A DNA stretch of 64,000 bases. Origin: Natronobeatus ordinarius (GTDB lineage Archaea > Halobacteriota > Halobacteria > Halobacteriales > Natrialbaceae). The DNA is taken from positions 3,162,001 through 3,226,000 of the forward strand of contig NZ_CP101456.1 in assembly GCF_024362485.1 (NCBI RefSeq), in the 5' to 3' direction. Below, in pieces: positions 31,128 to 44,895 of this stretch (position 1 is the first letter of the stretch; each line of letters begins with the position of its first letter). A program made the position numbers and the translations under genes. The notes under the pieces are model-generated. The model searched no databases. It saw only the letters and a list, made by a program, of their open reading frames with translations, and was not told the DNA's origin.

Positions 31128-31492
31128 CGGAGACCCCCATCCGCGTTCACGTGTGGCAGGGTCCGATCTCGATCCCGTGGTGTCATACGTCTCGGTGGTA
31201 CGTGTGTTCGACCAGAATAATCGGCGAATCCTAATGGCTGTATCTGATTCCCAGTTCGTGAGAATCACGGCGGGGTATGTATCTGAAACCGTGCTATCGC
31301 CGGTCACGGAGTTGATTCTGTGGATCGTTCGGGTCCCGGGACGCTCGCCGACTGGAGGTGTGGTCCGTCCCCACTGCGTTCGAACCGCACGCTGGCGTCG
31401 AGCCGGCGCTCATAACGGCTGTCGTGAGGCGTTACCGATGCAACCGCAAGACGGTTCGCGGTTGCATCGAAGAACGGCCACAACAGACAGAA
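31128..31492. other. Intergenic region carrying a family 2 hairpin
   Basis: 365 bases between the small wHTH gene and the 3' end of the reductase-like gene. The only clear structure is the hairpin at 31436-31469. The rest shows AT-rich stretches near 31215-31270 that may hold the wHTH promoter. Confidence 0.5.
31436..31469 (-). repeat. Hairpin repeat, family 2, copy 2
   Basis: A perfect 12-bp inverted repeat CGATGCAACCGC/GCGGTTGCATCG with a 10-base loop. Read on the minus strand it starts 24 bases after the stop of the reductase-like gene, the same offset and orientation as the copy after the SDR gene. Stem core, loop (GA-CCGT-T) and a downstream CAGC...TATGA are shared; two stem pairs differ but still pair. 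Confidence 0.6.
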
Positions 31493-32569
31493 TCAGTCGT
31501 CGACGGCAGCGTCGCCTTCTCCAGTTATATCGTCGCGCGGGCCGCCCGCGTGTCCTTCGTGAGCAACGGCCGTCTCGAGGAGCGCAGGCGAGATGGCAGG
31601 GACCTCCTCGTCCGTGACGGGACCGTGTGCGTCGAGGTCCTCGAGCGACCGCGGGAACGCCCGCAACTCCTTGTGGATGGCGATTCCGGCGTTCGCCCCC
31701 TGACCCATCGCGACGGGGATCTGGTTGTGTCCCGGCGTGAGGTCGCCGACGGCGTAGACGCCGTCGACCGAGGTTCGGCCGTGGTCGTCGACGACGACGG
31801 TGCCGTCGTCGTTACGCTCGAGTTCTATCGCGTCGGCGAGGTCCGCGTGGTAGTTCGAGCCGTACATCGGGAAGCCGCCCTGGTAGTCGCGCACGGTGCC
31901 GTCCTCGAACTCGAAGGACTCGAGCCAGCCGTCCTCGCCCTTGTTCATCGCCGTGATCTCCGCCTCCACGACGTCGACGGGATGGCCCTCGAGTAGTTCG
32001 GCGGTCTCCTCGCTCCACTCGGGCTCGTTGCCGCGGGTCAGCAGGTCGACGTCGTCGGTGTAGTTCAGCATGATCATGGCGACGTAGGCGGCAGCGTCGC
32101 TCGTCCCCATCACGAAGACGGGTTCGTCGACGAACATGTACGCGTCACAGTGGACGCAGTAGTGCAGTCCCCGGCCGGTCGGCGGGAGCGGTGGGTCGGG
32201 GCGCTGGTCGGCGAAGCCGGTCGCGAGGACGACGCGACGGACCCTGACCGCTTCGTCGCCCAGGGAGACGCGAAAGCCGTCGTCGGCCGACTCGCCGAGC
32301 GCCTCGAGGTCCTCGACGAACGCCCGTCGGAACTCGGCGCCGTAGCTGCGTACCTGCTCCCTGCCGGTCTGTAAGAACTCGTTGCCCGAGACCTCCTCGG
32401 TGATGCCGATGACGTTGTGCGTGTCGCGCATCATCGCCGCGCGGCCGCCACCGCGGTCGACGACCAGCGTCTCGTGGCCCAATCGCGTGGTGTAGAGCGC
32501 GCTGGTCAGCCCCGCCGGCCCGCCGCCGACGACCGCAACGTCGTAGTCGAACCCGTCGTGTTCGTGCAT
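31493..32569 (-). CDS. Thioredoxin-reductase-like FAD/NAD(P) oxidoreductase
   Basis: 358 residues. N-terminal FAD-binding Rossmann motif VAVVGGGPAGLTSALY, redox-active CVHC at 138-141 (GLHYCVHCDAYMF), and C-terminal VDGVYAVGDLTPGHNQIPVAMGQGANAG. The second nucleotide-binding motif is degenerate (VFVMGTSDAAAY rather than GGGDSA), so its electron donor may not be NADPH, as in ferredoxin- or FFTR-like reductases. About 40 extra C-terminal residues follow the family end. Likely partners are thioredoxin-type proteins; the peroxiredoxin gene lies just upstream on the same strand (208 bases away). Confidence 0.82.
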   Translation of the reverse strand: MHEHDGFDYDVAVVGGGPAGLTSALYTTRLGHETLVVDRGGGRAAMMRDTHNVIGITEEVSGNEFLQTGREQVRSYGAEFRRAFVEDLEALGESADDGFRVSLGDEAVRVRRVVLATGFADQRPDPPLPPTGRGLHYCVHCDAYMFVDEPVFVMGTSDAAAYVAMIMLNYTDDVDLLTRGNEPEWSEETAELLEGHPVDVVEAEITAMNKGEDGWLESFEFEDGTVRDYQGGFPMYGSNYHADLADAIELERNDDGTVVVDDHGRTSVDGVYAVGDLTPGHNQIPVAMGQGANAGIAIHKELRAFPRSLEDLDAHGPVTDEEVPAISPALLETAVAHEGHAGGPRDDITGEGDAAVDD

Positions 32570-35862: not shown

Positions 35863-35975
35863 CCGTCGAACGTCAGCGCACACCCGGTCACGGACGTCGA
35901 CGACCAGCCTCGGCGACGAGGTCGAGGCTGGTCGCTCGGCTGCGGTCGGCTGGAACTCGTTTCAACGACCACTAT
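35863..35975 (-). repeat. Palindromic element family 1, copy B
   Basis: Read on the minus strand, these 113 bases align without gaps to 44758-44870 on the plus strand, with about 93 identities counted by eye (about 82%). The inner stem is CGACCAGCCTCG/CGAGGCTGGTCG with a 10-base loop. Relative to copy A, one G-C pair of the stem is A-T here, so pairing is kept. It starts about 20 bases after the stop of the HTH-rhodanese gene and lies upstream of the sqr promoter. Confidence 0.8.
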
Positions 35976-35995
35976 CGTATCGGACCTCGAGACGC

Positions 35996-44695: not shown

Positions 44696-44749
44696 ACGAC
44701 GTCGCGACTCCCGGTCGCCTGTCGGGCGAATTATCGATCGGTCCTGTAC

Positions 44750-44767
44750 CGAGCACTATAGTGCTCG
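44750..44767. repeat. 18-bp perfect palindrome at the edge of element copy A
   Basis: CGAGCACTATAGTGCTCG is its own reverse complement. It overlaps the left end of the family 1 element (CTATAG at 44756). It may be a protein-binding site or the sequence the element's end pairs with; copy B lacks this perfect symmetry. Confidence 0.6.
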
Positions 44768-44879
44768 TTGAAACGATTTACACCCGGTCACAGCCGAGCG
44801 GCCAGCCTCGGCCTCGTTGGCGAGGCTGGCCGCCAACGGTCGTGACCGGGTGTGCAATGACTTTCAACGGTTACTATAG
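44756..44879 (+). repeat. Palindromic element family 1, copy A (most complete)
   Basis: 124 bases bounded by CTATAG at each end. Outer arms are imperfect inverted repeats sharing CTATAGT, CGTTGAAA and ACCCGGTCAC; the inner stem is a perfect 11-bp repeat GGCCAGCCTCG/CGAGGCTGGCC around a 10-base loop. It lies between two convergent 3' ends (61 bases after the antiporter stop, 17 bases from the stress-protein stop). Copies B and C are elsewhere in the window. No coding capacity and no obvious target duplication. Confidence 0.85.
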
Positions 44880-44895
44880 CGGACGGTCGGGCAGC

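Follow-up and report, generated by a model that had tools for sequence, protein, structure and literature searches.

Several kinds of short, dispersed sequence have been described that each resemble, in part, the element that is our subject here. Among them are the prokaryotic MITEs (PMC10969869), those of Haloquadratum among them (PMC3119063), which, like our element, are short, free of open reading frames, bounded by inverted repeats and flanked by target-site duplications, and which, again like it, occur in many copies, lie between genes and multiply in bursts in one species or another. The PATEs and SMRs of Haloquadratum are likewise short, transposase-free mobile repeats of haloarchaea; PATEs have palindromes near their ends, and SMR-A, at about 110 bp, has prominent terminal inverted repeats, or ITRs (PMC3119063). 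The GTAG REPs of the REP/RAYT system share with the element that they are dispersed palindromes (PMC3733652), and the 3'-end hairpins of haloarchaea share with it a hairpin shortly downstream of a gene (PMC7237163).

Here, we take up two hairpins in a 64,000-nucleotide stretch of the Natronobeatus ordinarius chromosome (the window), each of them a fixed distance behind a stop codon. What are they, and how did they come to stand exactly there? Very probably, they are the centres of a MITE-like, nonautonomous transposon that duplicates 3 bp of TNA at its target and has a strong bias for TGA and TAA stops.

Results

An earlier note, made from the window alone, had placed the two hairpins in one family, fixed 24 bases after stop codons in gene sense, and had taken two compensated base pairs as the mark of a selected RNA structure. 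Positions, stems and loops are as that note had them: the central hairpin of copy 1 lies at 1093-1123 on the forward strand (GGCGCAACCGC-GACCGTGTG-GCGGTTGCGCC) and that of copy 2 at 31436-31469 on the reverse strand (CGATGCAACCGC-GAACCGTCTT-GCGGTTGCATCG). The compensated pairs (C-G/T-A and G-C/A-T) are correct, as is the 24-base offset from the stops at 1067-1069 and 31493-31495, and the genes that end there, a short-chain dehydrogenase gene (272-1069) and a gene of the Pyr_redox_2 family (31493-32569, reverse strand), are real genes. The window has two occurrences of the core GCAACCGC-N(3-20)-GCGGTTGC, against 0.00 expected (the mean of 100 shuffles).

The extent of the feature had been drawn too narrowly, however. 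In an alignment of 74 copies collected by the core alone, with the ends disregarded (so that the core columns are invariant through the choice of sample), the core hairpin proves to be a mere centre, and conservation runs on through both flanks to TACGG...CCGTA or the variant TAACG...CGTTA, beyond which a T-S-A triplet bounds the palindrome at each side. The element is thus an imperfect palindrome of 83-86 bp, TNA-TACGG...GCAACCGC-loop-GCGGTTGC...CCGTA-TNA, reaching some 26-30 bases beyond the hairpin on each side. The CAGC...TATGA that had been noticed downstream belongs to the right arm, and the gene's own stop codon serves as the outer triplet of the element, which is why the spacing after the stop is fixed at 24 bases.

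A covariance model (R1) was built from 51 copies, both window copies among them, so that its full-length matches to these two show their extent and are no independent detection. Copy 1 spans 1067-1149 on the forward strand (75.2 bits, E 1.5e-15, model positions 1-86); its left end triplet is the TGA stop of the dehydrogenase gene (1067-1069, offset 0), and its second TGA, at 1147-1149, is the outer member of the duplicated target site. Because the element is a palindrome, the reverse strand of copy 1 is matched by R1 as well (62.9 bits). Copy 2 spans 31410-31495 on the reverse strand (74.0 bits, E 3.1e-15, full length), with the TGA stop of the Pyr_redox_2 gene as one end triplet (31493-31495, offset 0) and, as the outer copy of the duplication, a second TGA at 31410-31412 that reads TCA on the forward strand.

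The arms are mostly complementary (92% of cells are paired over the arms of the palindrome), with columns 10/79 and 20-23/66-69 mostly unpaired across copies. A subfamily with like ends has another centre, GGTGATCGC...GCGATCACC in place of GCAACCGC, as at 1878700, 791172 and 2425395 of the window's chromosome (G000:C1). With respect to the gene, copies face both ways, so that a fixed gene-sense orientation, which the earlier note had claimed, is ruled out. Of 40 copies that could be oriented, about 11 have the loop turned the other way round from the arms, even inside one recent burst, and this suggests that the centre inverts by way of a cruciform or hairpin. Two congeneric genomes have an element beside what looks like a shared gene end (right flank TCAgtcgcgctcg), with its arms in opposite directions (G100:C1:3098634, locus L253; G107:C11:110936, locus L254): either one stop was hit more than once, or the element turned around where it stood.

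How widespread is the family? The counts that follow are lower bounds. The window's genome has at least 4 exact cores, and relatives within the family have as many as 83. With E up to 0.1, R1 matches at least 80 places in the window's genome, the subfamily with the other centre among them; all lie on the main chromosome, and about 72 are well supported. Named matches to Natribaculum breve, Natrialba swarupiae, Natronorubrum halalkaliphilum and Natrinema suggest that the window belongs to the haloarchaeal family Natrialbaceae. At E up to 1e-6, that family has matches in at least 91 of the 121 genomes sampled and at least 23 of 29 genera, and several other families of the class hold weaker yet significant copies; the IMG/VR viral collection gave no match to one strict end-plus-arm pattern. 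The 83 exact cores are those of one genome, G018, where many copies are 94-98% identical, against about 8 and 0 in congeners.

The window has other palindromes as well. A second long family is present in the window at 35890-35990 and 44736-44882, with the form TATAGTG.TCGTTGAAA..ACACCCGGTCAC..CCAGCCTCG-N10-CGAGGCTGG. An internal box that is asymmetric, with CGAT in one arm and GTCA in the other, seems to recur in both this family and the stop-codon element, which hints that they form one superfamily whose outer repeats differ. At least 11 copies of the reversed control pattern CGTTGGCG..CGCCAACG are present in the window's genome, and almost none in relatives; the pattern lies within the palindrome at 44736-44882 and, belonging to that other family, is ruled out as a relative of the stop-codon element.

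Insertion is recorded in the end triplets. Triplets that belonged to the inverted repeat should be complementary across the element, TGA at the left end meeting TCA at the right. Among the 74 copies found by core alone, 25 have TGA at both ends, 19 have TCA at both, and none is mixed; among the R1 matches in the window's genome, direct repeats outnumber the other class by 28 to 5. Since the two ends carry the same triplet, the triplets repeat directly, as expected after a target-site duplication of 3 bp. We read 340 kb of G018 without selection and found 18 complete elements; in its congener G042, 400 kb that include the syntenic region hold none. One of the 18 (L311:18372-18457) reads gtcgacgac-TTA-element-TTA-cagcgacga; G042 reads GCCGACGAC-TTA-CAGCGACGA, the same flanks with a single TTA, which is to say an exact empty site, and in both genomes the gene ends in ..SSL-TAA. 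Because the triplet can also be TTA, it does not belong to the element as a constant piece, and TGA is ruled out as one by this copy and its empty site.

This is the only empty site that can be aligned to the base on both sides, most others being clear on the gene side alone. There, G042 genes stop at the same codon without the element (for example, at L308:18625, L309:3784, L311:8247, L314:11343 and L316:1460), and 13 orthologues of the window gene at 31493-32569, in other genera, are without it too. Two tandem copies in the window's genome (3300831-3300914 and 3300912-3300996) have one TGA in common, the end triplet of one copy having served as the target of the next. Mobility, as we use the word, is read from these patterns of insertion rather than from observed movement.

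The triplets coincide with stop codons far more often than chance would have it. With genes called by a simple ORF/GC3 method, a coding ORF ends exactly at the end triplet in 32-33 of 59 copies in the window's genome, against a background in which 12% of the non-genic TGA/TCA sites of the window are stops, or 16% when weighted for the bases that flank targets (P between about 1e-15 and 3e-11). In the 340 kb of G018, 15 of the 18 copies coincide exactly with a stop (14 TGA, 1 TAA), where about 11% were expected (P 4e-12). TAG accounts for 17% of the stops in the window and for 25% in the stretch of G018, yet it underlies none of the at-stop copies in either set, as would be expected of a TNA duplication, which cannot yield it. 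Annotation from other groups points the same way: in plasmid records, six in number and from five genera, the annotated coding sequence that touches a copy (for an archease, an FAD-dependent oxidoreductase, a PHP-domain protein, a glycosyltransferase, a VOC protein and a phosphatase) overlaps it by exactly 3 bp in 6 of 6, these six having been chosen for the annotated feature at their match (6 other records had none, and 1 was unannotated). A symmetric CTGAG target, hinted at by the copies on stops, failed at the copies elsewhere.

Might the bias reflect survival and nothing more, random insertion at TNA followed by the purging of genic hits, with TGA stops left as the commonest harmless site? 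TGA is the commonest stop, and about 45% of the copies in the window's genome lie away from any called stop, many of them between genes, both of which fit. Survival, however, leaves unexplained why position 0 should beat +10 or +50, and when the expectation for G018 is limited to sites at a stop or up to 150 bp downstream, it rises to only 31%, well short of 15 in 18 (P 8e-6). Slow purging also predicts that older sets should be the more biased, and the opposite is seen, with 83% of the recent G018 set on stops and about 55% of the older, diverged set of the window's genome. Finally, GAC is enriched as the last codon before targeted stops (18 of 44 against 27 of 178, P 5e-4). We judge survival unlikely to be the whole of the matter, and we grant that it retains real weight.

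That leaves the RNA. The earlier note had named, as findings that would tell against a selected structure, a lack of other copies or copies placed at random relative to genes without covariation; the genome-wide search returned neither, giving instead a dispersed family strongly enriched at stops. Covariation is there too (a score of 0.172 against 0.095 in shuffled alignments, with more double changes than in any shuffle), and the predicted folds of the whole elements are strong, at -39.6 kcal/mol for copy 1 (z -4.5) and -41.1 kcal/mol for copy 2 (z -6.6). Near some transcript ends of Haloferax volcanii, moreover, there are hairpins, one of which terminates in a reporter (PMC7237163). All of this would suit a 3'-end hairpin kept by selection beside stops as a terminator, a processing element or a stability element. 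Against it stand direct-repeat ends with an empty site, which amount to insertion, congeneric genes that lack the element at an unchanged stop, the 13 orthologues without it, an orientation that is random with respect to the gene and the columns (10 against 79, 20-23 against 66-69) that mostly fail to pair. By inspection, no T run follows either hairpin, and a terminator scan around copy 2 did not report copy 2. A selected RNA structure is therefore unsupported, and we hold it to be very unlikely. Compensated pairs would follow from a spreading palindrome without any need for selection on RNA, its two arms presumably changing together by descent within subfamilies and by hairpin- or recombination-based correction. 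Rfam has no match anywhere in the window at gathering scores.

What, then, moves the element? An autonomous partner with the same ends was not found in 12 low-copy genomes or among about half of the end matches of G018, although one that shares only short ends could escape such a search; end-pattern searches of G018 and the twelve returned short palindromes only. Convincing ends of this kind were also missing around the few DDE_Tnp_1 genes in G018, and no autonomous insertion sequence with such ends came to light near Y1_Tnp genes.

Insertion of the IS200/IS605 (Y1) type makes no target duplication. If an HUH (Y1) transposase with TGA as its target carried a REP-like element as single-stranded DNA, TTA should then not be left on both sides where the empty site has one; the equal use of both orientations also speaks against it. 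Y1_Tnp genes were found in five element-bearing genomes and not in two without matches, but seven genomes are far too few for such a correlation, and the Y1 genes have no shared flanking palindromes (among 13 Y1 loci, L288 alone has one copy, weak and distant). What speaks for a Y1 enzyme, besides, is that bacterial GTAG REPs, too, give stop codons to the ORFs beside them (PMC3733652). Movement by a Y1 enzyme seems to us highly improbable.

Discussion

The account that we prefer is of a transposon. A palindrome of the 80-bp class (TACGG...CCGTA) would insert at TNA with a 3-bp target-site duplication, most likely through a DDE-type transposase that acts in trans and makes a 3-bp staggered cut; the use of both orientations relative to the gene fits such double-strand integration. 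In most copies, the target would be the TGA stop of a gene and, rarely, TAA. The duplication would leave one in-frame stop on the gene side and the protein unchanged, and the inserted element would become the start of the 3' untranslated region. It is because a complete stop is kept on the gene side that insertion at TGA or TAA is harmless. Harmlessness fails to explain the choice of the exact stop over TNA sites tens of bases downstream, and so we favor a preference at insertion, rather than later selection, as the probable source of most of the bias. It is possible, and we put it forward tentatively, that a haloarchaeal transposition system truly targets stops as a safe harbor that its 3-bp duplication regenerates, perhaps by coupling insertion to the termination of translation or by reading the context of last codon and stop, GAC-TGA.

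A target duplication that recreates the very stop that was struck would be a way to spread without breaking genes, and the recent burst in G018, with about 80% of the copies in the sampled stretch exactly at stops, makes stop targeting directly testable. The element also gives many haloarchaeal genes strong 3'-end hairpins, which could confuse searches for regulatory RNAs and terminators, as they did here. Since the RNA fold is strong, an effect on transcripts is possible, and the element could affect transcript ends and stability across an archaeal family; any such influence may be a by-product.

How does all of this compare with what has been described? With MITEs, the element shares terminal inverted repeats, shortness and the lack of a transposase ORF (a palindrome of 83-86 bp), a target-site duplication (44 copies with direct-repeat ends against 0 in one set, 28 against 5 in the other, and the exact TTA empty site) and dispersed copies that vary in presence and absence (about 80 places in the window's genome; 18 in G018 against 0 in G042). 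It differs from them in being almost wholly one palindrome, in having no parent transposon that we could find and in a placement exactly on stop codons that the searched papers do not describe; the open-access papers searched hold no description of the element itself. Whereas REPs are 20-40 bp long with a tag at one end (PMC3733652), the element is about 80 bp long with matching TNA at both, its alignment has no GTAG (or CGTC) end tag, it uses TGA and TAA and not TAG, and no association with a RAYT, in the form of a Y1 gene flanked by repeats, was seen.

PATEs have no ITRs, neither PATEs nor SMRs duplicate their target, and SMR-A is aimed at PATE/IS605 palindromes rather than at stop codons (PMC3119063); the element has both ITRs and a target duplication, by which an IS200/IS605-derived PATE is ruled out. 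The 3'-end hairpins of haloarchaea, for their part, were identified from mapped transcript ends (PMC7237163), whereas the element is defined by its mobility and by its overlap with the stop codon.
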